Assembly (NCBI GenBank): GCA_034670405.1
Contig: JAXDDX010000043.1
Span: forward strand, 1-64,000
DNA from: Hoplostethus atlanticus
Taxonomy: Eukaryota; Chordata; Actinopteri; Trachichthyiformes; Trachichthyidae
Reading direction: 5' to 3'
Length of the DNA: 64,000 nt
Of this stretch, positions 2,476 to 37,816 are shown one piece after another. The position numbers were made by a program, and so were the translations under genes. Position 1 is the first letter of the stretch. Each line of letters starts with the position of its first letter. The notes under the pieces are model-generated. The model did not search any database. It was given only the letters and a program-made list of their open reading frames with translations, and had not been told where the DNA came from.

Positions 2476-2497
2476 GTTGCCGGATACAAGACCGGAG

Positions 2498-8040: not shown

Positions 8041-8112
8041 AGGTTAATGCTATTGAATGTACGATTACTGCTGACATTCAGGTCTAACATTTTGATCCCT
8101 GGCCCTTCACAG

Positions 8113-19010: not shown

Positions 19011-20640
19011 ATCACAGGATGTAGTTTGCATATTTAGACAATAAATGGTCAAACTGTTGGCATTTTAAGGAACCTGACTTGTAATAGCCAGAAGTATGGA
19101 GATGGTTCAACCAAGAAACAAACTTTGAATTTATACCTGTGTGAAGGAAGAACCTCAGACTATACCAGATTAAAGGTCTGTATTCATGCAATTGTCTTTC
19201 ACATTGATAGTGTAACATGGAGTTCAAGTATCAGAATAAGGGTTTAAAACAAATCATATAAGAAACCTCATATGATAGCAAAAGGTTTATTAGTTGACAC
19301 ACACAAAATTGTCCAGAGTCTCTATGTCATGTAGTCTCAACCAGAGCTCGTCTCCCAGACCCGATGTTAACCCCTCTCCCAAGCATGCATTTCACTGTTC
19401 TTATATATAGCAGGACAATCTTTTCTTAGGCTCTGAAAATGTTGACCATACTAAGCACTGAGTCCATTGATCACATATCCAGCTCCTGTTTATAGAAATG
19501 ATCAGTTTGGAAACTGTTGAAGCCAGTGGAAGGAAAATCTACCAGTTCCCTGCTTTCGTTGTTGGATTTACAACCATGTTGTCCTGTGGTCTGGCCTCTG
19601 CACACTCTTCTCTACCAAGATGTACGTCTTGACTCAGTCCAAGGCGCCATACAGCTGCAGGACCTAGCATTCCAAAGACACCTGTAGTGCTGGAGCCTCA
19701 GGATTCATCTAACAGAGATGCCCCTGTCTTCTTCCAGTTGCTGTCTTCAAACTTCACAAAATAATTCTAAATATATTTTACCATGTTTCATGCCTATATA
19801 CATTCATGCAAATCAGCTCATAACAAATAAATTGGACTGGAATCAGATATTGGCAAGTCGTTGGCTATTTGCATGTGCATGGAGAATTCTGTTGTTAAGG
19901 CAAGGCACCACAGGTGAATAGAAAAAAATATCCTTTCATCATATCAGAATGAAATTTTAAATATGGAATTACAAACCCGTTTTGTATTACAACTTTTATT
20001 TATTATGTTATTAACGTTCATAAAATTGCATGTCAGTTCGAAGAGTTTTTTTCTCAGTGGATAAAGTCAAAGTACATCCTGTTTCATTTTGATGAATAAC
20101 TAAATAGTAATTTACAGAGGGATTTGTAAAAAATGTTTTTGGGTGAATTATTTACAAAATACTATGGGTATGGCAAACATTATTTTCTTTTGTCTTTTTT
20201 CAAATGAAACACCCAATAGAGGCAGCAGGTGAAATTCAATGATCATATCTATGAGTCTGAAAAAAATGTTTTGCATACAAGAAATATGCCATTTTTAGAA
20301 ATGTTCAAAATGTTAAAGTTAAAACATACAAACAAACTATTTATAGGTGTTTTTGGTGATATTTTGTATATTTTATGAAAACTACAGTAGGTACAGAAGC
20401 AAAATATATCTGATTAACAGATTATCAATTAATGTAATCTGTTGTATTAACATATATAACAGATTACCACAGTGTGACAAAGCACCGCGTTCTCTGATCC
20501 CGCAAGGTATTGTGGGTATTTGAATGTTTGTTATCACAATACATTATTTGTGTAAAAGGGTAAAAGTATTTAGTTTCCTATGTTCAAAATAAAGTAAATG
20601 TTATTAACAGCAATATGTTATTTACAATCTTTATAATAGG
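19011..20640. other. Mostly A+T-rich sequence, one possible LTR, no gene
   Basis: From 19255 to 19920 there is a moderately complex segment with AAAGGTTTATTAG near its left edge and TTCTTATATATAG near 19400, a layout that would suit a minus-oriented LTR. No TG...CA boundary or duplicate was found. From 19920 to 20640 the sequence is strongly A+T rich with stops in every frame. No exon-like segment is visible. Confidence 0.3.
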
Positions 20641-20649
20641 CATTTACAT

Positions 20650-20910
20650 TATCCATCCATTTTATATACCCACTTATTCCTATTCAGGGCCACAGGGGGT
20701 GCTGAAGCCTATCCCAGCATGTATTGGGCAAAAGGCACATTTACATTATGTCAAACCTATATCAAACCTACAATAGTACTTTTTCTAAAAATCATTATTA
20801 TATTCTACATTATGTGATAGAGCAGCATTTGTTTACATACACAGGTATTACAGTAATTTAGCAGTCGCTTTTATCCAAAGCGACTTACAAAGGTGATAGT
20901 TGACAATATG
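20650..20910. repeat. Two short dispersed-repeat fragments (Rex3-like tail; LINE/SINE tail)
   Basis: At 20651-20740 the sequence ATCCATCCATTTTATATACC, followed by a GGGCCACAGGGGGTGCTG- and GCCTATCCCAGCATG-type stretch, is a widespread fish repeat that I associate with RTE/Rex3-like LINE 3' ends in minus orientation. At 20858-20900 AGTCGCTTTTATCCAAAGCG and ACTTACAA form another common fish retroposon tail. Both are short, truncated and non-coding. Confidence 0.5.
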
Positions 20911-21094
20911 TGGGGATTGAACACATTGTTGCTCATTTTTAATTCACTGTGAAATGACAGCCACACAGGGGCAGTGTTACTCTATCTTACCGATGGTACA
21001 ACCATGCAGCAACCTTTCACTCAGTTCATGGTTTTCTGGTCCAGTCCTCTGTTTCACAGTGAACAGTAATTTCTGACTGTTTTTTGTATTTCAG

Positions 21095-21229
21095 CTCCAT
21101 GACACATACATTCTGACAGTAAAAGGTCAGGACCTGGATGGCAAACCAGGGGGAAACTTTGCAACCAGCACCATTACCATTCACATCAATGATGTGAACG
21201 ACAGCCTCCCCACTCTAGACAAAGAAGAG
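21095..21229 (+). CDS. dsg2-like: Desmoglein unit A exon: end of cadherin repeat EC3
   Basis: TTTTTTGTATTTCAG precedes the exon and GAG|GTAGTT ends it. The 45 codons (phase 0 to 0) read YILTVKGQDLDG and then TITIHINDVNDSLPTL. The D-x-N-D box is the calcium-binding linker at the end of a cadherin repeat, and YxLTVxxxDxxG is the preceding strand. Its length and position match the exon that closes EC3 in desmogleins. It is intact and followed at 21247 by a Tc1-like fragment in the intron. Confidence 0.82.
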
Positions 21230-21246
21230 GTAGTTTTGTTTAATAT

Positions 21247-21340
21247 ACAGTACCAGTCAAAGGTTTGGACACACCTGACTGTTTGTCATGATCTTAAATA
21301 CATTTTGATCTAAAGGCTTGTTCAAAAGAACCGAATCAGT
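21247..21340. mobile_element. Tc1-like terminal fragment in the desmoglein intron
   Basis: ACAGTACCAGTCAAAGGTTT followed by GGACACACCTGACT is the terminal repeat style of a common fish Tc1 family, and the following CATGATCTTAAATACATTTT-type sequence continues it. No matching right end or transposase was seen, so it is a fragment only. Confidence 0.55.
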
Positions 21341-21868
21341 TAAGTGAGTGAGTTGATTTGACTCACACAACTGAATCGATTCAGCAGCGGTTATAGCAGC
21401 GCCAGAAAAAAATAAAAAATAAAAAATTGCTATTTAAGTGTTTTATTTATATTTTTGCCAGTGTTTTGTCTTTGCTACTCAAGTTTGCCAGTAAGCTAAC
21501 TTGTGCTCTGAGAAATGTTTGTAGAACTAAAACTCCATTATGCTTGTTAGCATAGTGAACATTATCTCAACCAGTGATGATGGAGACTGGTTCAGTTCCC
21601 CAATATTGAGTCAAGCAAAATTCAGTGCTACTGTATAGGAAAGAAAGAGATATTGTAACTACAAATGTGTTCTTGTGACATAAAACATCCAAGTCCAGGC
21701 ACTCGTGTGGGTTTTAATGTTAAAATGTCTGTAATTGGAGAGGTCTAAGACATTAAAATACCTAAGCGGAACCTATGCCTTCATCAGGTATAGGTTTGCA
21801 GTCAAGTTGTGATTTATACCTAATACTCTTTAAACCCTATTACACTCATTAATGTGTTTTACCTGCAG

Positions 21869-22035
21869 TATGAGGGCAGTATTGAGGAGAACAGAGGGTG
21901 TGGAGGTGATGAGAATCAAATCAGAGGACCTGGATGTTATGTACACAGAAAATTGGGAAATCGTCAAAGGCAATGAGGCTGGCTACTTCAGCATCACAAC
22001 CAACCAAGACCAACAAGGGCATCCTAATGCTTCTA
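21869..22035 (+). pseudogene. dsg2-like: Desmoglein unit A exon: start of EC4, frame-shifted and truncated
   Basis: TGTGTTTTACCTGCAG leads into YEGSIEEN. After 21892 the homologous reading continues in another frame ([15 protein letters not shown], then [12 protein letters not shown]), and after 22010 in a third (NKGILMLL). The residues match the start of desmoglein EC4 up to the expected exon end, but no GT donor is found where the exon should stop. Instead a hAT-like terminus begins at 22056. Two shifts in the same direction plus the missing donor make this exon non-functional as read. Confidence 0.72.
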
Positions 22036-22055
22036 CATCTGCTACAATGTCTCTA

Positions 22056-23010
22056 CAGAGCCGGGCAGCCCTATGTACCGCAAGGGCCCCCCCTCCCCCT
22101 CGTGTCAAAGCAGGTGTCAATGTTTACAACTTCGATGAGAGGATGAAGTGGAACTATCCTTCTGGTCACGAAAAGAGAAAAAAAACACCATGAGTGTGAA
22201 TTGCGGGAACAGCAATCAGGTAAACTTGTGTTCTCTTCTCTCTGAGTTTGATGTCAGCAAATAACAGTAACGTTACGTTGATGTGCTAGCTTGCAGTGCA
22301 TCTCTCTCTAGTCAGTCTGTCTTGCTAACCCAGCTGGGCAGTGCATCTCTTGGTCTGTCTGTGTCTTGCTTTCTTGCCAGCTACTTCCAGGGCTGTGTTC
22401 TGTAACTTTGTGCCTGACAAAAGTGAGCGTGAAATACAACTATTTATTAGTTTGATAAACGCAATGGGTGTTTATAAACTGCAGCTCGGAAAAGATAACC
22501 GTGTCGCACCTGATCATGCATTCAAATGCGCGTGCACGAAATGAAACTCGCGCTTTCCAGCAGCAACCTCTGTTGGGACCAGTCCAGACAATATATGGGC
22601 GTGATGGCACTCCTCATAGGCGCACATAAGTTTAAAACAAGACAATGATTATCTAGTCTTATCTAGACAAGGTTTAGTTACAACTCTAGACTAATGCAAG
22701 ATGGAAAGCAATGGATTGACATTGACTATTGATTAAATTTTCAATATGGTTACACATATCTCAGTAAATAATAACCATCAAGTATTCAGCCAAGCCATAG
22801 TATAAATAGTATTTTATATTTGAAAATGTATAAAAGGAAATCTGGGGTAGCCAGTTTGAATGGGCCTGATGCAGCTGATAAAATTAATAATAGTATTGTT
22901 ATCTATAATTTACAGGTGCTATGCTTGAGTTTGTCAGTAGAGGAGATGCTGGATCATCAGCCAGTACAAGCACAGACATACTGTATAGGTGCAGCCATAG
23001 CCTATAGGCT
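22056..23010 (+). mobile_element. hAT-like element fragment with zinc-finger leader exons
   Basis: It opens with CAGAGCCGGGCAGCCCTATG at 22056, typical of hAT termini, and continues through a GGGCCCCCC stretch. A start exon around 22136-22199 encodes [10 protein letters not shown] and ends in CAATCAG|GTAAAC. A second exon starts after TTTACAG at 22915 with GAMLEFVSRG. This two-exon leader is characteristic of vertebrate hAT transposase genes with a TTF-type zinc finger. The catalytic region and right terminus are not present before the gypsy fragment at 23245. It interrupts the desmoglein EC4 exon. Confidence 0.62.
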
Positions 23011-23244
23011 TATGTTTACATTGTATAGCCAAAGGTAATTGTATAATATTGCGAGGAATGGACTAATCAGGCAGCAAAGCCAAAGCTCAGTGTTATATTA
23101 TTATTTTCTATATTTTATATTTTCTACAATTTCTTATTTATGTTAATATTCACTTATCTTAAGATTCTATAGAAATATTCTATTCAATAAGTATTGTTTG
23201 TTTATACCTCATTCTGTTCTGTATAGGTCTACTTATTCTTAGAC
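23011..23244. other. A+T-rich spacer
   Basis: There is no ORF or repeat edge here. It separates the hAT-like fragment from the gypsy fragment. Confidence 0.35.
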
Positions 23245-23965
23245 CGACAGATGGGCTTAATCAGACCCTCCTCGTCTCCTGTTGGTGCTGGCTTCTTTTT
23301 CGTGGAAAAGAAAGATCACGCCCTGCACCCCTGCATCGACTTCCGGGGTCTAAACAACATCACCATTAAGAATAAATATCCACTTCCACTCATTGACTCT
23401 GCTTTTGAGCCCCTCCAACACGCCACCGTCTTTTCCAAGCTGTACCTCCAGAACGCCTACCACCTCATCCGGATCCAGGAGGGTGATGAATAGAAGACGG
23501 CTTTCAACACCGCGCTCGGCCACCTCGTCATGCCCTTCGGCCTCACCAATGCCCCGGCAGTTTTCCAGGCACTCGTTAATGACGTCCTCCACAACATGTT
23601 GAACCGCTTCATCTTCATCTACCTCGACAACATCTTGATCTTCTCCCGGAACATGGAGGAACACACACGTCAGGTTGGTGCTTCGTCGCCTTTTTGAAAA
23701 CAAGCTGTTTGTTAAAGCCGAGAAATGTGAATTCCATGTTTCATCCCTTCGGCCCCTCCGGATCATTGACGACCATCCGGCCTACACTGTCTGGAGGATC
23801 ATGGACATCCGCCACCATGGCCGAGGTTTCCAGTACCTCGTTGACTGGGAGGGTTACGGCCCAAAGGAGCACAGTTGGGTCCCACGTCGGAACATCCTGG
23901 ATCCCTCCCTCATCCACGACTTCCACCGGGAGCATCCTGACAGCATTTTCCCTCTCAAATTTTGA
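23245..23965 (+). mobile_element. Internally deleted chromodomain Ty3/gypsy (sushi-like) fragment
   Basis: The + strand starts within reverse transcriptase ([20 protein letters not shown], then [20 protein letters not shown], then [15 protein letters not shown]). A stop at 23491 and a frame shift follow before the [16 protein letters not shown] and [11 protein letters not shown] blocks; the catalytic YLDD reads YLDN. After [12 protein letters not shown] (about 23740) the sequence jumps directly into a chromodomain ([20 protein letters not shown], then [20 protein letters not shown]) ending at 23964. RNase H and integrase are deleted. The chromodomain is typical of sushi-type fish elements. 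Confidence 0.82.
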
Positions 23966-24196
23966 GGAGGCATAGCCTTCCTTGCCCCCCCGATGAGTCG
24001 CCGCTGCTGTATTCATGCATACAATGTAATCGGTGTTACAGACTTACCGCTCATTTCATTAAAATTTGAGACTGTTGACAAATACACACAAATGACTGCC
24101 CATAATCAGTTAATTTCGTTATATCATTTACAGACGCCCTGTGTAAGAGTTATTATTTTCTGCTGATGTACTCTTTTTTTGTGTGCCATTCCCCAG

Positions 24197-24630
24197 GCTG
24201 TGGATTATGAGGATGTGAAATATCTTGAACTGGGGCTGGTTGTGAGGAACAAGGCTAAGCCATATGATGGCGCTGGACATGGAGCTGCGACAGTTATTGG
24301 AATTACCTCAGGTGGAGGAGCAAGAGGAGATGTAGGAGGAAGTGGCACTGGTACAGGAGGTGTGTCTGGGGGAAGTGGAAGTGGAATTGGAACTGGAACT
24401 GGAACTGAAGGACATTGTGGGGGATCATCATGGACAAGTTCGACCACCAACAAATATAAAGGTTATCCAATCAAAATCAACGTGAAGACCCAGCCTGAGG
24501 GACCACATTTTGACCCTACGGTCAAAGCCATTCCCATCTCAGAGGGGGGCCACTCTATCAACATTAAAGAGGTCATTGCCCATTACCCAGCACTGGATGG
24601 AGATACTGGGAAACCATCCGAGAATGTCAG
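24197..24630 (+). CDS. dsg2-like: Desmoglein unit A exon: EC4 end to EC5 start, with glycine-rich insertion
   Basis: The acceptor is CCATTCCCCAG|GCT and the donor GTCAG|GTTAGT; the exon has 434 bases, phase 0 in and 2 out. It starts with AVDYEDVKYLELGLVVRNKA, the desmoglein EC4 strand pair. A stretch of about 45-50 residues made largely of Gly, Ser and Thr (from DGAGHGAA to GGSSWTSS) follows, and the fold resumes with GYPIKINVKTQPEGPHFDP, then INIKEVIAHYPALDGDTGKP. The Gly-rich part sits where mammalian desmogleins have a short loop. The frame is fully open. In context it follows the broken EC4 start exon across a 2.1-kb intron filled by hAT and gypsy fragments. Confidence 0.83.
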
Positions 24631-24736
24631 GTTAGTGTACACACACACACAAACACAAAATCCATTTACAGAAAAAATACTCTTATAGGTTTAATTGTCA
24701 ATGCTTCAAATAATTGACAGTTTATTTCTGCTGTAG

Positions 24737-24879
24737 GTATGCTAAGGGATCTGACACTGGTATCTGGCTGACCATCGACCCAAAGACAGCTGAGATTAGA
24801 CTCAACAAGATGCCTGACAGAGAGTCTCCCTTCCTGATCAATGGGACATATATTGCTAAGTTTCTCTGCATGACTGATG
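24737..24879 (+). CDS. dsg2-like: Desmoglein unit A exon: EC5 first half
   Basis: It is preceded by TTCTGCTGTAG and followed by GAT G|GTAAAC. The first base completes the Arg codon left open by the previous exon, and it ends in phase 1. Residues [20 protein letters not shown], then [10 protein letters not shown] and [13 protein letters not shown] form the EC5 strands of desmogleins, with the usual A-E-I-R-L-x-K-x-P-D-x-E core. It is intact. Confidence 0.82.
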
Positions 24880-25036
24880 GTAAACTCTTCCACTGTGTGC
24901 TCTGCTTCATACTTGATACATATCAGAATGCTCTCAGGAAAGTAAAATAAGTGCCTCATCAAAGGTTGAATTGACCAGATAGCATCAGCACCATGGTCTG
25001 GTTTTAGCACTCATGAAATTATCTAAAATGGCAAGC

Positions 25037-25393
25037 TCAAGTCCAAATGGCAAACCAAACAACAACCCCAATAGGGTGCAAGTTCACAAAGGCATAAAAT
25101 GACAAGAAAAACACAGCACTCTTCAGCCTAAAAGGGGGTTGATATATTGCTGTTACAGAAAGAGGCATTCTGGATCTATACATTGCAGACAGGGAACCTT
25201 GATTCTTCATTAGGTCCCTGTGGGTTCCCTGGGATTCCTCTACAGTAGGGATGTTTCCTCTAGGTGCAATCCTGTGTTTAATATCAGGTAACTCAAAAAT
25301 AACAAACACAAAAGCCAACAGGGCTGCTATACTAAGTACTAGTCCCAGATAGAGACAGAGACATCTGGACCACAGCTTGTTGAAGGACAACAT
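25037..25393 (-). CDS. Unidentified 118-codon ORF with a hydrophobic N-terminal segment
   Basis: This minus-strand frame starts with a short basic leader and a strongly hydrophobic run (CLCLYLGLVLSIAALLAFVFV, residues about 11-31) that could be a membrane anchor, followed by a hydrophilic part. I do not recognise it. It lies in an intron of desmoglein unit A, directly beside a minus-strand gypsy remnant beginning near 25430, so it may be an element-derived gene or chance. No partner exon or regulatory motif was found. Confidence 0.25.
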   Translation of the reverse strand: MLSFNKLWSRCLCLYLGLVLSIAALLAFVFVIFELPDIKHRIAPRGNIPTVEESQGTHRDLMKNQGSLSAMYRSRMPLSVTAIYQPPFRLKSAVFFLSFYAFVNLHPIGVVVWFAIWT

Positions 25394-25429
25394 CTACTCT
25401 AGGAAAGGGTTTGCTCAAGATTCAGTGTG

Positions 25430-26880
25430 ATTAGGAGGGCAGGGCTGCTATTGGTGCTGCTGGCGCTGTGTGGCTGTGACAGTACCACCTCCTCTATGGA
25501 CGGGGGATGTGTGAAAGACCGGGTGGACCCTCATGGCTCAGGGAAGGCTAAAAAGACAGGAGACCGGGTTGATCCTCTTCTCCACCTCAAAGGGCCTGAT
25601 GTACCTAGGCACGAGCTTGTGGTTCTCTACCCTTACAGTTGCGGTTTTCCACCCAGATACTGTGCACAAAGCCAAACCTTGTCTCCTGGCTGGTAGGGCA
25701 CCATGGGTCTTCTCTTGCGGTTAGTGAGTAGAGTCTGCTGGGACCAGGCTTGCAACAGGGCTGCTCATCTCCAGGTGCGGTGGCACCTGCGGATGTAGTC
25801 CCTCCTCATTGTGGGCCACCAGAACTGCCTCTGCAGGGACTTCAGGGTTTGATCTGTGCCGGGGTGACCCACCAGTTGGGACGAGTGCCCCCATTCCAGC
25901 ACTCTCACCAAGAGCTCCTGGTTCCCAATGTCATAGTTGCTCTCGGCAGGGTAGAGGCGTCTGGAGAAAAAGGCGCAGGGATGGAGCGTCTCATCGTGTG
26001 TTGGGTACAAGATGGCATCTATGCCTACATCCTACATCAGCTGAAAGAATGGATGAAGCGGTGATAGAAATTGGCAAATCCCATGAATCACTGTTCCTGT
26101 TTGATGGAAGTGGGTCTGGGCCAGTCCACTACTGCCTGCACCTTGCCGGAGTTCATCTGCATATTCTCTGGAGTGATGATGTATCCAAGGAAGCGAACCC
26201 GGGTGGCATGGAATAGGCACTTCTCTGGCTTGACAAAAAGGAAGAGGATACTTATTCTTGACTGTGATGTTATTGAGTGGACGGTAATCTATACATGGGC
26301 AGAGGCCTCCATCTCTTTTGCCCATGAAGAAGAACCCCACACCAGCAGGGGATGTGGAGGAGTGGACGATGCTGTCCAATATACTTCTCCGTGGCTCTTG
26401 TCTCTGGAACAGAGAGAGAGAGTACAGTCTCCCCCAGGAGGGACAGGTACCAGGCAACAGCTCTATCACACATATGGGCGGTGAGGAGGCAGTGAGGTAG
26501 CTCTCTAAAAAGCTTGCTAAAAACCACCTAGAGGTCCATATACTCACAGGGGAAGGAGGGTAGGTGTATGGACTCCTTGCTGTGAATTTGCAGGGGATGA
26601 ACCTTCCAGGAGGTTTTAAAGGAGCCATGTGGAAACATTGTCAAGTTCTTCTTTTTTTGGCTAGGCTGAGTTTCTCCAAGTCAAAGTGACCGGTAGCATG
26701 GTCTGGAAGGTAGAGAAGGTTAATAAAGAAATTTGACCCATCAGGACCCCTCTACTCACCGACGGGTCTGCTCTTTTTGGCCACTGGGGGCAGTTGGCGC
26801 AGAGATGTCCCTGCGCTCCGCAGTAGAGGATCAGGCCCTCGGCCTCTTGGGCTCCAGTGCTCCATGCTAACACTTAGCAT
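25430..26880 (-). mobile_element. Degenerate chromodomain-type Ty3/gypsy remnant (minus strand)
   Basis: Reading from 26880 downward: a gag zinc knuckle (CGAQGHLCANCPQWPKR) and protease leader, reverse transcriptase pieces (PAGVGFFFMGKRDG, then CIDYRPLNNITVKNKYPLPF at about 26370-26250), RNase H and integrase zinc-finger pieces ([20 protein letters not shown], then [18 protein letters not shown] at about 25950-25800), and a decayed C-terminal region. Frame shifts, stops and internal deletions are frequent. The blocks match the sushi-like type also seen at 23245-23965, but this is a separate copy in the opposite direction. Confidence 0.75.
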
Positions 26881-27100
26881 ACACAATGTTGATACTCAAA
26901 CCGGAGCCAAGTATTTACTAGGGACCCATGGATGATTTTGCTGCCTATGTTATTACTTAATGGTTAAGTTGACCAAAGAGACAATCTACCAAAAACATTG
27001 TCTCTGTCTCTCAACTTGAACTAATTTATAACAAGAGTGGAAACAGCACTGAGATGCTGACTAGTCTGACCTGTCCTCATTCCCTTGTCTCCCTATACAG

Positions 27101-27322
27101 GCATACCCTCTCAAACAGCCACGGGCACCATAACCATCCAGGTGGCAGACTTTAATGACCACTGCCCCACCTTGACCAGTAACGTCAGGACTATGTGTAC
27201 TAATGTTGACGCTGTCACTGTAACTGCTGAGGATAGGGATGCATTCCCTAATCGAGCTCCTTTCAGCTTCTCCATCATCCCAGAGGGCACCAAGGGCAAA
27301 TGGGATGTTCAGCATCTTAATG
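27101..27322 (+). CDS. dsg2-like: Desmoglein unit A exon: EC5 end and membrane-proximal region
   Basis: The exon follows CTCCCTATACAG and ends AAT G|GTGAGG; 222 bases, phase 1 in and out. TGTITIQVADFNDHCPTL carries the variant calcium linker (D-F-N-D) seen at the EC5 boundary. Then VRTMCTNVDAVTVTAEDRDA and PFSFSIIPEGTKGKWDVQ match the extracellular anchor region of desmogleins. It is fully open and in phase with the neighbouring exons. Confidence 0.84.
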
Positions 27323-28636
27323 GTGAGGTTAATAATAATAATCAGAATTATAATCTGTATCTATAATAGCAGGTCCAAAATAGTTGCAAAGCACTTAGAA
27401 CTTAGCACTTAGAAAGAAGTAAAAAACAAATCACATAAAATCAACAGCAAAAGGAAGTAAGGTAACAAATATAAAGCAAGGCATAAACAATTAATAATTA
27501 ATAAAAGAAAGTCTACAAAAAATTGTTTTAAGAAGTGAGTTAAAAGATGATTCACATTTTGCTCAGGCAGGTCGAGGAGAAACTTTGGAACAGCCTATAG
27601 GGAACAGACAATACGAATGTCAAATCTAGATTTTGAAAGAGCCAGTAGGGACTTCTTGTTTTTAGGTGCTCAGGAGGAGCCACCTCTATAAGAGCTGGGC
27701 TTTGTGTGTGCATTCATTCGTTCATTCATTAACTCATACAGACATGCTTTAAAGTTTATGAACAAATTATAGAAACCTTTAGTTTTTACCATGCATGCCT
27801 TATATAATAAAAATTAACCTTTACTTGACTGAAATAAATAATTATAATTATAATAAATAATTGTGCATGTTGTAAAATGTAGGTAGTAAGTAGAATCAGG
27901 TAGGTAAGTAGAATCAGTTTGGTAAATAATTGGGTATGAAGTTAACCAAGTAAAGGTCAGACCTTTGGGGAGGATATTGTGTGGAACTCCCATAATGACA
28001 GATGAGAAACGTGGTCAGTTTTGTTTCCTGGGGCTGACGGACCAAGTCTAAAGCCTGCAGGATAATTCACCTAACAGGATTCCAATGAGTATAGATGGAT
28101 TAGTGACAAGATTCACCTAGCCTTCATCCTAAGGTCTGCCCCTCTAACTACTTAATATTCCCCAATTCCCCAGTGTACTGGGTACTTGCTAAATTCACCT
28201 TAGTTAACGGCAGCTCTTCTCTTTGAAACGGTTGGTATATATGCTAGGTTTATATTTAAAGGGCTATACTTTAGCCATAAATTTAAGTATACTTTAACCA
28301 TCTAGGGCACGTTTAGTGGACCACTTGTTCTACTCTAGGTCAAGAGTAACCTGTAAGAACCTTATGTTGACAAAACTTAGAGTGTTGCTATCTACCAGAA
28401 AGGGTGGCTACTTTGATTAGTTTATTTTGATTAGTAATAGTAAATACAAAATGCTTTATCATGGTATATCAAATAATAATCCAAATCCAATCCAATCCAT
28501 AATCCAAATTAACAAAAAATAAATATAAAATAAAATACAAAAATCACTTGTTTATCTAGAGTTTGGAACAGCCAATAGGGACCCGATCGACAGTACTACA
28601 CTCCTCTGAGAACTAAGTAACTAATGTTTCTGGCAG
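27323..28636. other. Intron of desmoglein unit A, A+T rich, possible degraded repeat
   Basis: The similar strings TTTGGAACAGCCTATAGGGA (27584) and TTTGGAACAGCCAATAGGGA (28561) flank the interval, suggesting two fragments of one old dispersed repeat. The rest is low-complexity A+T-rich sequence. No coding potential is seen. Confidence 0.4.
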
Positions 28637-28874
28637 ACACCTCGGCCAACTTGAGGACCCCTGAGGAAATGTGGCCTGGTTTTTATGAGGTGGCATTGGA
28701 TGTGAGGGACGAGCAGGGACACACCTGTCCAGACCTGCAGAAAGTGAAGGTGGAAGTTTGTACCTGTGAGGATGGAATGGTATGCAGAGTTCGAGGCGCC
28801 GGTGATCGGCTAAGGGGCAGAGTTAGGAGCTGCAGCCATTGGACTGATCTTCCTGGGCCTGCTAATGCTACTAC
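28637..28874 (+). pseudogene. dsg2-like: Desmoglein unit A exon: anchor and transmembrane start, broken
   Basis: TTTCTGGCAG precedes the exon. It reads DTSANLRTPEEMWPGFYEVA, then VRDEQGHTCPDLQ and VCTCEDGMVC, the Cys-containing anchor next to the membrane. In the G run at 28814-28817 the frame is lost; the hydrophobic segment GAAAIGLIFLGLLMLL lies one frame over. By phase the exon should end at 28874, and the following bases are ATGAGT where a GTGAGT donor would be expected. The next exon (35516) begins with the exact two bases needed to complete the split codon, which supports this boundary. As read, protein and splicing are both disrupted. Confidence 0.75.
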
Positions 28875-28982
28875 ATGAGTATGATGTGACATTCATCCTG
28901 ATGAAGAACCATGTGGTCAAACAACTAAAACATCGGTGTAGTCAAGACAAGCTTAGTAGAGTCCAAGTCAACACCAAGATCC
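28875..28982. other. Start of a 6.6-kb intron before the Harbinger-like element
   Basis: There is no feature beyond continuation of a short open frame past the mutated donor. Confidence 0.4.
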
Positions 28983-29020
28983 GGGGCCAAATGTATAAAC
29001 CATGCGTACTGTAGTGTATG

Positions 29021-30860
29021 CAGGAGACATCGGCCTCCCCCCCTCTTCGGACCATACAAAATACACAGCAACACCCAAAGACTAACACATTCCTCTCCCA
29101 GGGCCTTCCTATGAGGTCAAGACCCCTGCTGTGCTCCCAGGAACCCAAGGAACCCCCTTTGCAGCAAAAGGTGGATTTCCCCATAAATCTGCCAAAAAGT
29201 AACACTTTGCAGGTTCGACTTGCCTGCTCTGGTGCCATTAGGAGATAGGTCCGATGATAAGGGCCGGGGAAATGTACCTAATATGCCTTCCAAGGGAGAC
29301 ACAGAATAAGTGAACCAAGAAACTCTGGAATGTATTGCAAAAATGTGCTTTCTGTATATGTTTTATTAGATTTGAACTTCACATCCTGTGGCCGATGATG
29401 TGCCCTACTCCCCAATGTAGTATCTGGGTTATTCAAGGCACACAGAATGTGTTATCAGGACTTTTGGTTTACTCGCCAGTATTTTGTGGTAAGACAGTGA
29501 TGTTTGGTGTCATACAAACCCATTTGTTGTAAGGTGATTGAATATGTCACTTGCATCCCCAAAGGATCAAGAAAAATTATGTTTTCCAAACTTGAGCTGC
29601 AAATGCAGTTTTAGGGGATGGTGATCACCGATCATCAAGTTGTAAATCTGATGCATGCAAATGAGGGAAATACCTACCACTCCTGACATACCATAAAACC
29701 CTCTCAGCCCTTGGGCTCGGCTCAGCACAGACACGAAATCTCACGAACTCGAACGAACAAAGGAGGACAACTCCTGCAACAGGGTGGACGGGCAAAAACT
29801 CAGGCGGAAAGACATCAAGAAACATCAAGGAACATCAAAAAAACTCAACTCAACCATCCTGCAGCCAGTCCCGCAGCCCGTCCTGTAACTAAGTTTGAAC
29901 CTGGCTCAAAGCTCTTCTCTCAGCTCAAGTACCAGACCAGCTCTAGAGTGAATCTTGCCGAGACGGCCGATTGAGTTCACTCAACCTGATCCAGAAGACT
30001 ACGAAACCACGTCAGAAGCCAGCCGCTATTCTACTCTGCTTCCTGAACGATGTGAGTCAACACATCGACCTATCCCTCTATATCCACTGAGGTGAACTGT
30101 TGGCACGATGACTCCGACGAACAACGGCCCCCGTACCGCACTCCACAACGGCCCTCCTGACGTCGACTGGTCCAGACCAACACGTGCGTGTGTTTACCTG
30201 TCCACTGAGACTGTGCGACGGTTACCACGGAGACAAGGCACGCTGACACCCTGCAAACCAGACGGTAACCAACTTTCTTGTTGATGCACAGGTGATGCAA
30301 AGGCAGTGTTGAACTGTGAAAGTGAGGTTAGAATACTCTCTCTCTCTCCACTATTCTCTGTCCTTCTGTCCCAAGTCTCCCGGAAACTGTCAGCTGTCCT
30401 CCAAGCCATCTTTCGCTGTTGCCACATTGCCGCAATTAGACGTATTACAGCTCAGGTCGTTTTGTCGGTGCCAACTTCCTTGCAATTGCTATTTGCCATA
30501 TTCTCTGCCACTGTTACTTGGCATACCATTTGCCAATATTACCTGCCCTCATTTCATTTAACTTTGTTGTACATATTGTACATATATTTATCTATCATTA
30601 TTCATTGTGTTTAATCAGTTAATAAATCTTTGTATTTATAAAGAACTGATTATTGTGTGTTATTGATATATCCTGGACATGAAGGTAGAAAATCACTGAA
30701 ATCTAGAGCTCACTTCTTCTGACTATTAGACTGATATCATTATAAAGAGACTATTCCAGTGTAAACTGGTGGTGCCCCGCGAGTGTTAATTAATAAGATA
30801 TTAATTACTAAGAATAATTTCAATAATTGTCAATTTTCAGAATTGACCAAATAGTCTCAT
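29021..30860 (+). mobile_element. Unclassified LTR-like insertion within Harbinger-like element 1
   Basis: Harbinger-type terminal sequence stops near 29020 and resumes near 30870. The insert has a moderately complex, non-coding body, an AATAAA with nearby T-rich sequence at about 30621, and at 30768-30783 CTGGTGGTGCCCCGCG, which could be a primer-binding site just after an LTR. Small ORFs (29711-29974, 30306-30614) show no recognisable domain. A second LTR was not found, so this is a tentative call. Confidence 0.35.
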
Positions 30861-31501
30861 CATTCATAACGAAGCACAACACGCTACACGTACACACGAA
30901 AAGTGTACTTACGCCACTTTCCACACAGGATTCTGAATGTATAAAAATCCACAGGCGGTGAGAATGTGCGTACTGGTACACATCTGTCACACCAGCACTT
31001 TCCACGCAGGTTTCCGAATGTATAAAAATCCACGGCCGATGAGAATGTGCGTACCAGTACACATCTTTCACACCATGCGTACCGTATACGCAGTCTTTTG
31101 AGTCAGATTAGTGTGATGTTGCGAGTTGGCAAAAAAGGATAATAAAAGTGTGAATTTGGGTGACATTTTATTTAAAGCTTTTTTCCTTCACTACATTGTG
31201 TTGGAATGTAATCTATAGTTTAAAAAAACCTTCACAATGATTACATAGTGATGCGTGAGTGGTTAACAACCTTTTTTTGACAAGCCTTAATTTCGTTCTA
31301 TCTTGAGTAAATATGTTTGTCACTATGCATTATAATAATTATGATGATAATGATCTTTATATGAATAAATGGCAGTTTGGCCCAGGATAAAAGCCATGCG
31401 CCCATCAAGCGAAGAGAGCACTGGGGTCCCCTCTCCTCCTCCAGTAGCTCACACACTAACGCTGTGCGCAGTAATGCGCTTCTTGGCCTCACGTAATCAG
31501 A

Positions 31502-31702
31502 CTACTTTATTTTCATCTCCTCCAGAGTCTGCGGCTCTGAACTAATGGCGTTCACTGCTTCGGTTACTTTCTGCCATTCAACTTGTTTCATTTTGGTAAT
31601 GCCAGAGCTTAGGCTTCCAAATAATACGCGTTTTCTTCTGTCAATTTGATCAACCATTATTTCAAGTTCACAGTCGGTAAAATTGCGCTTCTTCTTCTTC
31701 AA
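31502..31702 (-). CDS. Myb/SANT-like DNA-binding protein fragment of Harbinger-like element 1
   Basis: The 66-codon frame begins KKKKRNFTDCELEIMVDQID, then VLFGSLSSGITKMKQVEWQK and VTEAVNAISSE. The pattern of a basic start, an acidic helix, a conserved W-x-x-V-T-E-A-V-N and a third helix is that of the second protein of PIF/Harbinger transposons, which binds the termini and helps the transposase enter the nucleus. The frame ends shortly after the domain, so the protein is truncated. Confidence 0.7.
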   Translation of the reverse strand: MKKKKRNFTDCELEIMVDQIDRRKRVLFGSLSSGITKMKQVEWQKVTEAVNAISSEPQTLEEMKIK

Positions 31703-32529
31703 TTGCTTCTTAAATGCTTCTCCTCAAAACGAAACTAAATGCTGGCCCTTTACATGCAAACCAGGCAATTGGGGGTGTGTTGGAAGCCATTTATAGTCAA
31801 TTGTGGGCATGGTCAAAAGGCTTGTGCACGGTGCTCACAATTTCAGGATGATTGAGATGTATGAGGAAAAAACATGTGGGAACAGATGCACGTGGGGTTT
31901 TATAAATCTGACGAAAAGACTGCGTATGCATGTTTCCTGTTTTGTGTGTACACAGATTTCTACACCTAAATATACACAGAGTTTTATACATTTGGCCCCA
32001 GGTCCAAGCTGGTTGAGACCAAGTAAAGACAGAGACCTGAGAAAATCCAGTCCTGTTGTCCTAGAACCAGAATATCGTCCCAGTTAGCTTAGTCAGCAGA
32101 GAATTTAAGCCTCTTTCAGATATACACTTTGGATATTTTCCAGAGAATCAGGTCCGTACTTTAAGGAGTTGCCCTTCCACACATATAGCACACCACCGGA
32201 GAATGTCCGTTTCGGATGCGTTCACAACAACATAAAATACTCTGGTTAGTTTAGGCAAGGGGTGGGGCCTGGGTAGAACGCGCGGGAGACAGGACATGAC
32301 GCAAAAAGTGCGCTGCAGAAATTGCAGTGTTTTATTAACAGCACGAAGATGGCGGACAAAGTGACCAGCTCACTCTCAGTGGCCATTTTTGCGTTGATGT
32401 CAATACTAAATGTAATATCTGCAGTATCGACAAAAGGGTTATTATCCCGGTTTCGCTCTAGTCGCATGATAAATACGTCATCAACACGCCCCCTCGCTCG
32501 TCGACAATACAAGCAGATTCATTGAGAGG

Positions 32530-33480
32530 GGTTCACTGGAGATGGGGGGAATAGAGAAGGCTGGAGATGGCAGGAGGAGTGGAGATGGCGAGGCGAGGAT
32601 GGGTGAGTAGCAGGCAGGCAAGCAGACAGGCTGGGTTCCTGGACTACGGGAGACAGAGGTCCAATCCCAATGTCCACACTCACGGACTCACAGACTTTGA
32701 GGCGCGTTCCCGCTAAGTCCGCGAGGGTTTAGGGCTGTCCCACTGTCAAATCGTCAAGTGCGAGGGCTCTCTCGCAGACTTTTGAGCCCGTTATGCACAC
32801 TTTCCGTAAGTCCGCATTTCTGCAGACTTTGCCTGAGGGAATTACCCACAGTTCATAGCATTGGGACGTTGAATACAGGGTTACCAGGGGAAGCCCGGAA
32901 GCGCTTTAAAAAAAACGGTAAACAAATGGAAGGACAAATGTTTATTCATTTTTTTTTTTTTTGCTTAATGATGCTGTTTTGACAAAAACAAGTCAATTGA
33001 TTATTTTACAATTAACTCTGTAAGGCAAGAGCCTGGGAGATGTTCAGATCAGGCAGTCGGTCCCTTAAGTGCCTTGGCCATGAACAAAGTAAAAAACTTA
33101 ATAAAAAGTCCCAAACCCACAATCGTACGTAACATGTTTTGGTATCGTCAAGGTAACGAGATATGTCGCCAAGTGCTGTCCCATTCCTATTTATACAATT
33201 TCGAGCCCTTGCAGCCTCTCGCACTCAAGCATTTACCAGGTGACGTCAGTTAAGTCCGTGAGGGTTCAGGGTTTAGGGGGGGACATTGGGATTGGGCCAG
33301 AGCAGGAATTAAAGGTAGCAAACACGGGGAAACAAGCATAGGCGATATCAAAAACGAAGCGCGGCTGGAGAGTAGCTACCACTAAAGCAGAAGCAACAAT
33401 CTGGTGATGAGTGGGAGGAAAGCCAGGGTTGATATACAGGAGAGTAGATGGAAGCCAGGTGTGCAGGCCACTCACACTCA
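32530..33480 (-). mobile_element. LTR fragment related to the solo LTR at 42222, split by a MITE
   Basis: The blocks AGGCAGGCAAGCAGACAGG (about 32608) and GAAAGCCAGGGTTGATATAC plus GAAGCCAGGTGTGCAGG (about 33417-33468) correspond in order and orientation to blocks in the solo LTR 42222-42833 (GAAAGCCGGGGTTCTTATAC, AGCAGGTGTGCGG). A TATA-like box is shared. The right edge dissolves into a CACTCACGCTCA minisatellite. Boundaries are approximate. Confidence 0.5.
32661..33295. mobile_element. MITE with CCAATCCCAATGTCC terminal inverted repeats
   Basis: CCAATCCCAATGTCC at 32661-32675 is the exact inverse of GGACATTGGGATTGG at 33281-33295. Sub-terminal blocks are also inverted copies (GTCCGCGAGGGTTTAGGG near 32717 and AAGTCCGTGAGGGTTCAGGG near 33252), and an inner pair around GTGCGAGGGCTC and GAGTGCGAGAGGC is partly complementary. 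There is no transposase. It splits the LTR fragment. Confidence 0.75.
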
Positions 33481-33580
33481 CACTCACGCTCACACTCACG
33501 CTCACACTCACGCTCACACTCACGCTCACACTCGGGCTCACACTCGGGCTCACACTCGGGCTCACACTCGGGCTCACTGG
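33468..33580. repeat. CACTCACGCTCA minisatellite
   Basis: About nine to ten tandem copies of a 12-base unit alternate CACTCACACTCA, CACTCACGCTCA and CACTCGGGCTCA. The change from CACG to CGGG units in the second half shows block-wise amplification. It keeps long SVSP-type frames open on the minus strand that are not genes. Confidence 0.85.
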
Positions 33581-33721
33581 GCGATAAAACATTTTAGACT
33601 AGGGTGCTGGATGGGTAAAGTCCGTTTAATTTCCAGACCAACTGATTCGGACATTTGTGTTCACACATACAACCCCTCCGAGTAATGTCTAGATAAATTC
33701 TGGATTTCACTGCATGTGAAA

Positions 33722-33825
33722 GAGGCTTTAGTCTCAGGGTCATGGGTTCAAGGCCCACCTAGCATTAGCTATCACATAAGTTGCTGTGGACAAAAGCATC
33801 TGCTAAATGATTGTAATGTATCATG
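33722..33825 (+). mobile_element. tRNA-derived SINE remnant
   Basis: GGGTTCAAGGCCC near 33747 fits a B box (GGTTCRANNCC), and the following GTTGCTGTGGACAAAAGCAT and CTGCTAAATGATTGTAATGT form a retroposon tail widespread in fish (the reverse of the tail at 20858). The A box is weak, and the copy is truncated and ends in AATGTA-like sequence. Confidence 0.5.
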
Positions 33826-35515
33826 TAAAAATAGGTGATGAACAGTGTACATGTCTTTCCAAATGTAAAAATAACACTTAATGAGTTTCTTAACGGTCAT
33901 CAGGTGTAGATCTATCTTCAGGAGGAAAGTATTAGTAATGATAACGTATCAGTAGTGGAGTTGAGGGAATACACAGATATCTGGAGTATACCCGCAAATT
34001 TCAGAATAGTAGAAGGGCGCAGCATGGTCACGCACACGCACACGCACACGCACACGCACACGCCTTACCAGCAGGTGGCAGTAGCCAGAGCTGGGGACCA
34101 GTCTAAGAGGTTGGTCTATTCAGCAAATTACACTTATTAATCCATTCACCATAGAACGAGAAGGGTCCAGCCACCAAAAGGCACACCTAGTCCATTCTAG
34201 TTATATAGAGCTGCATAATTGTCTACACTGTAAGTGAAGAGGCCCCAATAGACAAACCTGGTGTGACCCACTGCAAGAGTGAGGTCAAATAAGACCGGAC
34301 AACGCCACTTTGGGAGTTTCACCCAAGGAAATATCTGTATTTTTGATGACCAGAAGAGTTTCCACAAGACACGAGTAAGTAGGGACAGTAGAGCCAGAGA
34401 CGTGATATTCAAGGCCCGATGGGCAATTTATTTCAAAATAGAGCGAAGACGAAGCTGGGGATAAAGGGCAGAGTTAAAACAACAATTTTATTAAACAATC
34501 TACTACAAAACAATATTAAAATGCGGAGGGAACGCTAGGGAGTGCTACTGACTGCCACCAGAAATAATAATAAATGGAAGGTGGCTGACCGACTGTAGGG
34601 ATCGTACCTTGGACCAGGGGACCGACCGTATCACCGCCACGCAAAAATGACAACTATCCAGTAAATAAAGAAAAAACAAAATAACATTACACAGAAAACG
34701 CTGGCGCAGTCAGCATACTCTTTTACAATTGCCCATAAAATATATTAACGGCGTACGGCGGCTACGCCGTACTACCGGCAATACACAGGTGAAACCAGCC
34801 TTTTACCCTAACATAGATTGTAGGAAAAGCAAAGCAGCAGCGGCGATGTCCTAAAAGACAGACGATCGCCTGTTATCTATACTTAAAAGCATAACCGTCA
34901 TACATAATACAACGAAATCTGGCCGCCAACATTACCTTTACGGTAGCGCTACCTCCCGCTGATCAATGGATACCCCGAAGCAAACCTATAAGACAGTGAT
35001 TTAGTAAATCTGGCCCGTGCACAGATCGCCTAGTGCAATACCAGGGGATTGTCTATAGGAGGAATACTGCCCATACCATACCTGCTATAGTAGACAGCAA
35101 CCCACAGAGTTTACCCGCCGGGGAAACACAATAGCCCGTGACACCTGTTCCAATGATAAAACGGTAAGACCTCAAGCCACATGATACCCAATAAAAGCAG
35201 ACCCAATAGTAGACATACCTCTTAGCAGCGATCGGCTCTACACAATGCCACGGCACAGGGAAACCAGAATTCAGGTTTAACCATAGCGTGTCTTACCTGG
35301 GGTATATATACACGCACTCTGTAAGCAAGCTAATTGCTTGATACTTCGCCTCTCCGCCCAAAACTGCGGGGGGGGGGGGGGGGGGGGGGCGTGGCTGCAG
35401 GACAGCAGAACTACGGCAGCCGAGTAGCTCCGTTTGTAGAGACTGGAGCTATTTCTACCGGTTACACTGGAAAGAGAATAGTCTGGCAGGTAGGTAGACT
35501 TTGTTATGTCCACAG
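33826..35515. other. Intron sequence with microsatellites and an unassigned GC-rich repeat-like segment
   Basis: A hexanucleotide (CACACG)n run at about 34028-34063 and a G run of about 22 at 35369-35390 stand out. From 34440 to 35350 the composition is more balanced and a TTTTATTAAA occurs near the left edge, so a minus-oriented LTR is possible, but no matching ends were found. A short palindrome GTACGGCG..CGCCGTAC lies at about 34754-34773. No gene is seen. Confidence 0.4.
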
Positions 35516-35646
35516 TCATTCATCTGTTGCTGCTCTTATGCCATTATGGTGGGGCTGGTACTCTGCCAGGGGGCTTCAATGAGACGCCCTTTGACAACAA
35601 ATCACATCTCATTGCCGCCCACACTGAGACCCAGGACGAGAATACG
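35516..35646 (+). CDS. dsg2-like: Desmoglein unit A exon: transmembrane end and start of the catenin-binding tail
   Basis: TTATGTCCACAG precedes and ACG|GTAGGA follows; 131 bases, phase 1 in and 0 out. It reads IHLLLLLCHYGG, the end of the membrane helix with juxtamembrane Cys, then GGFNETPFDNKSHLIAAHTE, a conserved membrane-proximal segment of desmogleins preceding the plakoglobin-binding part. The split codon fits the broken exon at 28637-28874. A following exon should start in phase 0, as the orphan exon at 8113 does. Confidence 0.8.
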
Positions 35647-35814
35647 GTAGGACAAACCTATTTAATTTGCCTTTAAACGTGTCAATGTTGTAAACTTTTG
35701 AATGTTGATATGTATGCGCACAATGTCTACTCTGTTTCTGCAATCACAACTGGTTCTATCTATCAACACTGTAACCTCGGTATCAAGTATGATGTCAAGC
35801 ACCCCCCACTGCAG

Positions 35815-36234
35815 TCCCTGGCTACTGTCCCACAAACAGAACGTACTGTGGTCAGGGAGTCATCTGAGCATTCTCGCATAGTGACTGAAGGCATGGCCCC
35901 AGTGAGGGAAGTCATGGCCCCAGTGAGGGAAGGCATGGCTTCAGTGAGGGAAGTCATGGCCCCAGTGAGGGAAGTCATGGCCCCAGTGAGGGAAGGCATG
36001 GCTTCAGTGAGGGAAGGCATGGTCACAGTGAGAGAAGGCAAAGCAAGCCAAAGCCAGAGGCTCCTATTACAACAGCAGCCTATCTACTACACCACCACCA
36101 CTGTAATGCAGCCCATGCAGAACATTTTTCAACCACAGCTTCAGAACACAGAACACACATCTCTTCCACAGTCCCTTCTCACTACAAGGTGGTGCAGGAG
36201 AAAAAAGGCAACCACCGAGAAAGTCACTGAATAA
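35815..36234 (+). pseudogene. dsg2-like: Desmoglein unit A terminal exon with 7-residue repeats
   Basis: A pyrimidine-rich CACCCCCCACTGCAG ends at 35814 and the frame is open in phase 0 to a stop at 36232. It reads LATVPQTERTVVRE, then repeats of the type GMAPVRE/VMAPVRE, then QPIYYTTTTVMQPMQNIFQP, which resembles the repeat-containing distal tail of desmogleins. The last 30 codons no longer look like the family, and an alternative frame (SHYKVVQEKK) seems a better continuation near 36180, so a frame shift is likely. The open frame upstream to 35698 may be real exon instead of intron; the start is uncertain. Confidence 0.62.
35890..36036 (+). repeat. In-frame 21-bp tandem repeat (seven units) in the desmoglein tail
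   Basis: Seven consecutive 21-base units encode seven residues each: GMAPVRE, VMAPVRE, GMASVRE, VMAPVRE, VMAPVRE, GMASVRE, GMVTVRE. Units 2, 4 and 5 are the same at protein level, as are 3 and 6, suggesting unequal exchange. The unit length is a multiple of three, so the frame is kept. Confidence 0.9.
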
Positions 36235-36639
36235 GGTGTTTACAGAACAACACATAATAGCAAATACCTGAGCAAAAGCAAACAGGATATACCTTGTTCA
36301 GGTGTGTCTTTCAACCATATGATTTGCAAGTTGTTCAAACGTCTGGCAAGGCAATGAATTTGCGACACTGTTAAACTGTTAAACTGTACATGTCTCAGTT
36401 TATAGAGGGTGTGTTGCAGTATATTGACTAGGTATGAAGCCTCATGTGCCTGCACGTACTTTACACTCTGTTATTTCACAAGAATGTCAGTGATCAGTGT
36501 ATATAATGGGCATATTTGTAGGATGTAGAGTTTCTGCTTAACACTTTTTAAACCTCTGCACATATACATTTGTTTGGTGTATTACTTATTTGTACAGTAA
36601 TAACTGGGCTTTTTTCATGTTTCAGCTTGGTTTTTGATT
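36235..36639. other. Downstream region of desmoglein unit A
   Basis: This is A+T-rich sequence with no ORF and no clean AATAAA; it may be 3' untranslated or intergenic sequence. Confidence 0.4.
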
Positions 36640-37490
36640 TTATTGTTTTAATTGAACCTTTATTTAACCAGGAAGTCCCATTGAGATGAAAAGAAAATCT
36701 CTTTTTACAATAGAGACCTGGCCAAGGTAGCAGCCATACAGTTTCATATCATACAGTACAATACAGCAAATACAACATAAAAAACAGTTCACAACAATTC
36801 AAATAAAATAGCATTTCAAGTAACAAACAAATTTGGCTAGTCTTAGTTCTTTTTGCAGATTATTCCATGCCCAAGGTGCATAGTAGTTAAATGCAGTTTT
36901 ACCCAGAGCTGTAAGAACCAAATCAAAAAGCAACCATTTTGAGGAGCGTAGTTGGTAACTGCCAGAACTGAGACAAATAAGCGTACAGAGGTAGATAGGG
37001 AGTTTACCCAGTATCGCTTTATAAATAAAAATTTACCAGTGCTGCTGCCTGCATGTGGTCAACCCACCAATTCATAAAGAGTACAATGGTGAGTAAGGGA
37101 CTTTGCATTTGTAATAAAATGCAGAGAAGCATGGTACACTGAATCAAGGCTCCATAAAACTGAGGAAGCTGCATGCATGTATAATGTCACTGTAATCAAT
37201 CACAGACAGAAAAGTCTCTTCTAGAAGTTTTTTTCTTGGCATTAAAACTAACACAAGATTTATTTCTAAAATAAAAGCCAAGCTTCACTTTAAGCTTCCT
37301 AACTAGGTTAGCAATATGTACACTAAATAAAAGCTTGTCGTCCATCCATATACCCAAATACTTGTACGAGGGCACCCTTTCAAGGGCTTTACCATTGGAT
37401 AGATACATCCACAAAGGTGAATCTTGAATCTTGTATGTCCCTAGTACTATGCCAAAACAACACAATGCTGGCGTTCTTACTGAAACCACA
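36640..37490 (-). mobile_element. 5'-truncated LINE fragment (reverse transcriptase C-terminus and 3' end)
   Basis: At the left edge GAACCTTTATTTAACCAGGA and GTCCCATTGAGAT, then GAGACCTGGCCAAG, form a known fish LINE 3' end in minus orientation. The minus-strand ORF 37489-37196 contains VPSYKYLGIWMDDKLLFSVH, then KLKVKLGFYFRNKSCVSF, the region after the polymerase palm in non-LTR elements. Remnants at 44890-45200 and 52180-53690 appear to be of the same or a related family. The 5' part is absent. Confidence 0.7.
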
Positions 37491-37816
37491 ACCCATAATT
37501 ACATTCCATGGTGTTGGCACCTGTAGAGGCTCTGCCTGTTTCTGTTTACCGTTTGTGATACATGTAAAGTACTACCATACAACTAGCCAGGCAGGTTGAG
37601 TGAACGTTCTGTGTCATGCAATGTTTTACTGTGAGATACCAAACTACACACATCTCTAGCTAGTGCTACTGACTGATATAACAGACAGAAATATGAAATA
37701 ATGGAAATGTTCTGTTTAACTAATGTAATTTCATGGAAATGTCATGGATGGTAACTCCATCCATTCACAAACCACAGTACATTCTGTGATACGTCCTATG
37801 CAAGGATTCCAGGGGG
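37491..37816. other. No recognisable feature
   Basis: This is non-repetitive A+T-rich sequence between two LINE fragments. No ORF or inverted repeat is seen. Confidence 0.4.

Follow-up and report, generated by a model that had tools for sequence, protein, structure and literature searches.

The window analyzed here is the first 64 kb (64,000 nucleotides) of a 3.6-Mb contig of Hoplostethus atlanticus (JAXDDX010000043.1, hereafter C43), in an assembly of 632.8 Mb and 1161 contigs. As listed in Table 1, this stretch contains a broken desmoglein gene, named unit A, together with an isolated exon upstream of it, named the orphan exon, and the beginning of an older desmoglein paralog, unit B. An earlier reading of the window, made from its letters and open reading frames (the sequence-only reading), had described unit A as a recent pseudogene caught in the process of decay between two other family members, the orphan exon and unit B. 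The orphan exon at 8113-8330 and the first exon of unit B at 43657 are both present. However, it was found that the closest relative of unit A is not unit B but a near-intact desmoglein gene on another contig, C126. This gene was named gene 0; the first 100 kb of C126 was examined as the reverse complement of that contig (C126r). From the comparisons described below, unit A is very probably an unprocessed (duplicated) pseudogene of a teleost desmoglein-2-like gene of the Dsg-alpha/dsg2.1 type.

Seven of the eight segments of unit A match the fish desmoglein-2-like protein P0001 in gene order over window positions 21101-35646 (tblastn), with the lowest E-value, 2.7e-51, for exons 8 and 9 and the highest, 4e-9, for exon 12. 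The last exon matches the last exon of gene 0 (E 8.5e-42) and also lies inside a match of P0003 at 35530-36150 (E 2e-9). Thus, the eight desmoglein exon-like segments in gene order proposed by the sequence-only reading were recovered, and both the protein searches and the tree described below agree with its assignment of unit A to the desmoglein family as a member of a cluster. When exon 8 was used alone, four distinct PDB sequences were found at E ≤ 0.01, all of which are named Desmoglein-2, and one of these entries also names Desmocollin-2. The protein joined from the unit A segments found 55 proteins at E ≤ 0.001 (7994 candidates scored). The named ones among them are desmoglein-like, cadherin-domain, "Si:ch73-74h11.1" or hypothetical proteins, all of fish, and the top match is from Scatophagus argus (60% identity). 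None of the eight desmoglein pieces scanned reached the Pfam cut-off, presumably due to the pieces being short parts of domains, and there were two weak Cadherin matches (E 0.02 and 0.16). Since no short piece passed this cut-off, the family was assigned via the protein and PDB searches. The exon sizes and phases of unit A also show the desmoglein pattern; the retained exons align with those of gene 0 and follow the exon table of zebrafish Dsg-alpha.

Exons 2 to 14 of gene 0 were modelled at C126r 68123-84640 with AG/GT borders, while exon 1 was not located on C126r. These exons stay open in one frame until the tail of exon 14, where a poly-G run contains one break (C126r 84220-84250), possibly an assembly error. 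The sizes of exons 2 to 13 are 123, 159, 139, 161, 135, 186, 512, 143, 222, 243, 134, and 318 nucleotides (nt). In Table 3 of PMC3268089, the corresponding exons of zebrafish Dsg-alpha are 129, 162, 142, 164, 132, 186, 395, 143, 222, 240, 119, and 297 nt. In that paper, Dsg-alpha is described as the Dsg2 orthologue, a gene of 14 exons on chromosome 20 with a glycine-rich extracellular insert of 43 residues. By this table, gene 0 is identical to Dsg-alpha in the sizes of exons 7, 9, and 10 (186, 143, and 222 nt) and follows it in the others, and it would likewise have 14 exons if one signal exon exists. Unit A differs from Dsg-alpha in having lost exons 1 to 5, exon 13, part of exon 14, the reading frame, and two splice donors.

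Unit A is collinear with gene 0, including the introns (blastn; Table 1), and the identity of the aligned blocks is 68-93% with gaps counted. The beginning of the collinear region at 19841-19864 is weak (a 24-bp match), and firm homology starts at 19921. At the other end, the homology reaches past the 3′ end of gene 0 into the flank. In the parent interval of gene 0, 42.5% is matched by unit A and 57.5% is missing. At the amino acid level, six of the eight segments are 80-90% identical to gene 0, and exons 8 and 14, with their length-variable repeats, are 68-69% identical; the identity to unit B and to a further paralog on C43, unit C, is 32-72%. A processed pseudogene (retrocopy) is ruled out, since the introns are present and homologous to those of gene 0. 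Judged from the collinearity, unit A arose by duplication of gene 0 together with its introns, in tandem and in the same orientation if the overlap of the two contigs is real.

Do gene 0 and unit A actually lie side by side? In a genome search with P0001, the strongest desmoglein matches were on the contigs C126, C43, and C31, among the 62 of 882 candidates that were scored (a lower bound). C43 1-6832 and C126r 93142-99994 form an end overlap of 97.9% identity over 6.88 kb (blastn). Its opening 3.5 kb is 99.9-100% identical, and the remainder is 94-98% identical with many indels. An RVT_1 domain at window positions 700-2520 on the minus strand marks an element resembling a long interspersed nuclear element (LINE) inside this overlap. 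Based on these alignments, C126 and C43 can probably be joined end to end. A real overlap would place the end of gene 0 ~8.5 kb upstream of window base 1, with gene 0 and unit A in the same orientation.

Aligned against gene 0, unit A shows three frameshifts (two deletions of 2 nt in exon 7 and one of 5 nt in exon 11) and the loss of two splice donors (exons 7 and 11), in addition to large deletions and an insertion. The "at least five lesions" counted before gene 0 was at hand are therefore confirmed. With exons 7 and 11 frameshifted and their donors gone, unit A has no single open spliced frame. The insertion of ~2 kb contains an RVT_1 match at 23494-23697 (E 2e-10). In the 19 kb upstream of unit A within the window, no match to exons 1 to 5 was found by tblastn or by blastn against gene 0, and neither a signal peptide, nor a propeptide cleavage site, nor the first or second extracellular cadherin repeat (EC1 or EC2) was matched there. 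The intracellular cadherin segment, which in desmogleins binds plakoglobin, is missing because the deletion of ~1.96 kb removed exon 13 and the beginning of exon 14. The 21-nt repeat in the remaining part of exon 14 (35880-36040) has 7.7 copies and is expanded relative to gene 0.

Table 1. Desmoglein-related features of the window, in window coordinates (EC, extracellular cadherin repeat; aa, amino acid)
Feature	Position	Strand	Description
Orphan exon (desmoglein exon 13)	8113..8330	+	Within homologous block 8035-8517; 4-nt frameshift near its end and two in-frame deletions
Scrap of desmoglein exon 14, 38 bp	9125..9162	+	89% to C126r 84396-84433, E 4e-7; downstream of orphan exon
Unit A duplicon	19841..41898	+	Collinear with gene 0 from intron 5 to 3′ flank, broken by insertions and deletions; blastn versus C126r 71255-87044
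Unit A exon 6, EC2/EC3 border, 135 nt	21095..21229	+	Open, splice sites kept; 89% identical to gene 0 (aa)
Unit A exon 7, EC3, broken	21869..22032	+	Deletions of 2 nt near 21891 and near 22003 and of 12 nt (in frame); lacks its 3′ end and donor
Insertion, ~2 kb	22033..24006	.	In place of the exon 7 end and the intron 7 start; no homology to gene 0 found; reverse transcriptase fragment
Unit A exon 8, EC3/EC4 with Gly-rich insert, 434 nt	24197..24630	+	Open; 78 nt (net) shorter than gene 0
Unit A exon 9, 143 nt	24737..24879	+	Open
Unit A exon 10, 222 nt	27101..27322	+	Open
Unit A exon 11, extracellular anchor and start of membrane helix	28637..28874	+	5-nt deletion near 28810; donor 28875-28876 AT versus GT in gene 0
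Unit A exon 12, membrane helix and intracellular anchor, 131 nt	35516..35646	+	Open; 3-nt in-frame change
Deletion scar	35737..35760	.	~1.96 kb lost versus gene 0: whole exon 13 and 5′ part of exon 14
Unit A exon 14 remnant	35760..36234	+	532-bp internal deletion at 36151/36169; expanded 21-nt tandem repeat
Unit B exon 1, signal peptide	43657..43704	+	Older desmoglein paralog
Unit B exon 2, propeptide cleavage site and EC1 start	54462..54587	+	
Unit B exon 3	63180..63335	+	
Unit B exon 4	63925..64000	+	Cut by window end

How has unit A changed since it was separated from gene 0? The tree consists of 33 rows, of which five are from this genome and 28 are from the 55 proteins mentioned above; the row of unit A is the protein joined across the breaks, and in the row of unit B, half of exon 8 is misread. 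Gene 0 is the sister of unit A with a support of 100/99; the pair adjoins Myripristis (97/85), and the two diverged from each other later than from the other fish species in the tree. The end branch is 0.18 for unit A and 0.024 for gene 0, a 7.5-fold difference. In a pairwise comparison of 527 codons, in which glycine-rich codons were masked and one stop codon was dropped, the synonymous divergence (Ks) is 0.100 and the nonsynonymous divergence (Ka) is 0.058, with a ratio (dN/dS) of 0.58 (bootstrap 0.39-0.92). The noncoding divergence (K) is 0.100 over 3154 sites in 18 hand-chosen blocks, and 0.099 over 4342 sites after the addition of 11 left-out blocks, indicating that the choice of blocks did not bias K. 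I polarized the 77 differing codons (the orphan exon included) with eight of the 55 fish proteins as outgroups: 29 are derived in unit A and 7 in gene 0, while 17 show both states, 7 show neither, and 17 have no outgroup. The imbalance of 29 versus 7 (binomial p 3e-4) implies a dN/dS of ~0.93 on the unit A branch and 0.23 on the gene 0 branch, if equal neutral rates are assumed on both branches; the range of 0.74-1.06 for unit A covers the polarized proportion and not the error of Ka or K. Under the same assumption, the protein change of unit A is close to neutral on its branch.

The lesions, the noncoding divergence of 0.10, and the sister relationship with gene 0 all agree with the view of unit A as a recent pseudogene. 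On the other hand, the idea that it was caught in the process of decay fits less well. Because the protein change is near neutral on the unit A branch and the 5′ half is missing, a copy that was non-functional from birth or soon after is favored; unit A was probably dead or almost dead from the beginning, rather than a once-useful gene in mid-decay. In such a history, the duplication would have taken in gene 0 at least from intron 5 through the 3′ flank. The duplication may have had its break in intron 5, or the 5′ part may have been lost early, and either event would have left the copy with neither a promoter nor a signal peptide. Lacking these as well as most of the first two cadherin repeats and the catenin-binding segment, the copy could hardly have made a desmosomal cadherin. 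Near-neutral drift and insertions of mobile elements into unit A would have followed later.

Some observations weigh against this interpretation. Exons 6, 8, 9, 10, and 12 of unit A are still open with their splice sites kept. The joining across breaks may lengthen the unit A branch, and at 259 outgroup-conserved columns unit A departs at 40 and gene 0 at 22, which is milder than 29:7. The bootstrap range of the pairwise dN/dS excludes 1, as expected with gene 0 constrained, and leaves room for a short working period of unit A. The tandem arrangement, for its part, holds if the overlap is real, and the join depends on an end overlap that is partly built of a LINE-like element. A different history, which matches the picture of the sequence-only reading, would be that unit A was at first a complete working duplicate, was kept for long, and later lost its 5′ exons and broke down. 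The five open exons, the pairwise dN/dS below 1, and the 22 departures of gene 0 itself among the 259 conserved columns would be compatible with it, as would the homology past the 3′ end of gene 0, which means that not the exons alone were duplicated. However, the 29:7 polarized changes together with the 7.5-fold longer branch imply a dN/dS of ~0.9 since the duplication, and exons 1 to 5 are unmatched upstream of unit A in the window; this history is thus rated as rather unlikely.

Could a working gene look broken through assembly errors? Suspicious single breaks in low-complexity runs do occur in gene 0 and unit B (poly-G in exon 14 and the glycine-rich part of exon 8, respectively), and the contig overlap has an indel-rich part toward the C126 end. 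In unit A, however, the deletions of 2, 2, and 5 nt lie in ordinary sequence, and they are accompanied by a donor substitution, an insertion of 2 kb, two large deletions, and five exons that left no trace in the 19 kb upstream, so the probability of this explanation is practically negligible. It is also very unlikely that C126 is the other haplotype of the same place and gene 0 the working allele of unit A. Although the two lie on separate contigs whose join is inferred, their noncoding sequences differ by 10%, in contrast to the 99.9% identity in the first 3.5 kb of the overlap, and this overlap places them in succession and in the same orientation. Even if unit A is a pseudogene, it might still be transcribed, and its intact exons 8 to 10 or its RNA might act on the cluster, for example if the RNA served gene 0 as a noncoding or antisense partner or if the exons were joined as spares to an upstream transcript; such a role is considered extremely improbable.

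The orphan exon was thought to represent a neighboring family member. It was revealed, rather, to be an exon 13 of the same recent duplicate lineage, an exon that is missing from unit A and is itself broken. Its amino acid identity to exon 13 of gene 0 is 54.6% in a gapped alignment. The surrounding block 8035-8517 is 88-89% identical at the nucleotide level to gene 0 at C126r 82708-83286 and includes exon 13 with intron flanks on both sides (blastn). The noncoding K between the orphan block and gene 0 is 0.113 (258 sites), compared with 0.100 between unit A and gene 0. The orphan exon cannot be taken as a sign of an intact upstream gene, because it has a frameshift of 4 nt, which the sequence-only reading had not mentioned, and gene 0 has its own exon 13. 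A transfer of the spliced exon 13 alone is unsupported, given the intron flanks.

By these alignments, the orphan exon would go back to the duplication round that produced unit A. It may have been displaced from unit A itself, or it may be what survives of a third copy. In the latter case, there would have been three tandem copies, namely gene 0, a copy Z, and unit A, and the orphan exon and the exon 14 scrap of 38 bp would be all that is left of Z. The two fragments lie in gene order, and the divergence of the orphan block from gene 0 is comparable to that of unit A, so that a third copy is a real possibility, if a little short of an even chance. Both fragments lie where unit A has gaps, as a displaced piece would, and this observation is weak either way. 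Since 57.5% of the parent interval is missing from unit A, the complementarity of the orphan fragments to the gaps is indecisive, and it is too weak to prove a displaced piece.

Is such a duplication common in fishes? Eleginops maclovinus has two desmoglein-2-like proteins with consecutive locus tags, both of which belong to the unit A/gene 0 clade. The same search matched three proteins of Archocentrus centrarchus, encoded on contigs of identical length, and the two placed in the tree belong to the same clade. In contrast to the broken unit A, these duplicates are annotated as proteins, and the duplications are separate in the tree. The desmoglein-2-like gene thus seems to duplicate repeatedly in fishes. 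Unit A is also like the mouse Dsg1a/b/c genes, which are lineage-specific tandem copies in the desmosomal cadherin cluster, although the mouse copies are functional and of the Dsg1 type. With its introns, tandem position, frameshifts, lost splice sites, and near-neutral change, unit A fits the class of unprocessed pseudogenes, and the displaced exon 13 is the sole oddity. A literature search on desmosomal cadherin gene duplication in teleosts found nothing, and among the papers listed by a search on tandem desmoglein pseudogenes, none was on this subject by its title and the beginning of its abstract. Unit A offers a clean case of a desmosomal-cadherin duplicate dying early. In annotation, gene 0 might be fused with unit A and the orphan exon to give a single false gene model, or unit A might be listed as a working desmoglein; beyond its value for annotation, a duplicated pseudogene is an ordinary finding.

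Downstream of unit A, unit B extends from 43657 to a stop codon at ~77.2 kb of C43. Within the window, unit B (exons 1 to 4) and unit A (exons 6 to 12 and 14) have no exon in common, which leaves nothing there for the dN/dS comparison of the two suggested by the sequence-only reading. Its exons 1 to 14 are open, including the last exon up to the stop, except for one break in the glycine-rich repeat of exon 8 (within C43 69860-69960), which is possibly an assembly error. Unit C lies from ~84 kb to beyond 98.2 kb of C43, and each of its exons 2 to 14 has an open frame as far as examined, without the exons being joined; exon 1 and the end of the last exon were not located. In the tree, unit B clusters with proteins of Larimichthys, Osmerus, and Clupea, while unit C clusters with the rows of Labrus and Pogonophryne. 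The sequence-only reading had suggested a lineage-specific expansion of the cluster. This is true of the duplication that gave rise to unit A and the orphan exon, and of that one alone, because units B and C belong to paralog clades of fishes that are older. As far as open or nearly open exons indicate, gene 0, unit B, and unit C are presumably the genes that work in this cluster. Among the paralogs, the glycine-rich insert of exon 8 differs greatly in length and composition (window 24197-24630 in unit A; C43 69719-70262 and 91236-91889; C126r 75143-75654). Its function is called unknown in zebrafish, too, in the abstract of PMC3268089.

A second locus exists on C31 (2250001-2280000), where a desmoglein-like gene is accompanied by another desmosomal-cadherin-like gene on the opposite strand. 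The C31 desmoglein clusters with desmoglein-2 of Nibea and Fundulus in the tree. In zebrafish, no Dsg paralogue was detected besides Dsg-alpha on chromosome 20 and Dsg-beta on chromosome 2, according to PMC3268089. By analogy, these two zebrafish loci may correspond to the C126/C43 locus and the C31 locus, respectively. On C126r, cadherin-like exons, perhaps of a desmocollin, were observed at ~6.2-15.2 kb on the minus strand, opposite to gene 0. Farther along C43, a galactosyltransferase domain (PF02709) was found at position 127029; in mammals, B4GALT6 lies near TTR and DSG2.

Several mobile elements were also observed in the window. One reverse transcriptase of the non-long terminal repeat (non-LTR) type is present in two copies (RVT_1, 37790-39151 and 55618-56529) in opposite orientations, flanking exon 1 of unit B. 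Intron 2 of unit B carries an LTR-type element with reverse transcriptase and RNase H domains (56772-59134, minus strand). A frame with a SCAN domain (12163-12909, minus strand) and a frame with a Myb/SANT-like domain (49166-49498, plus strand) are probably of mobile-element origin.

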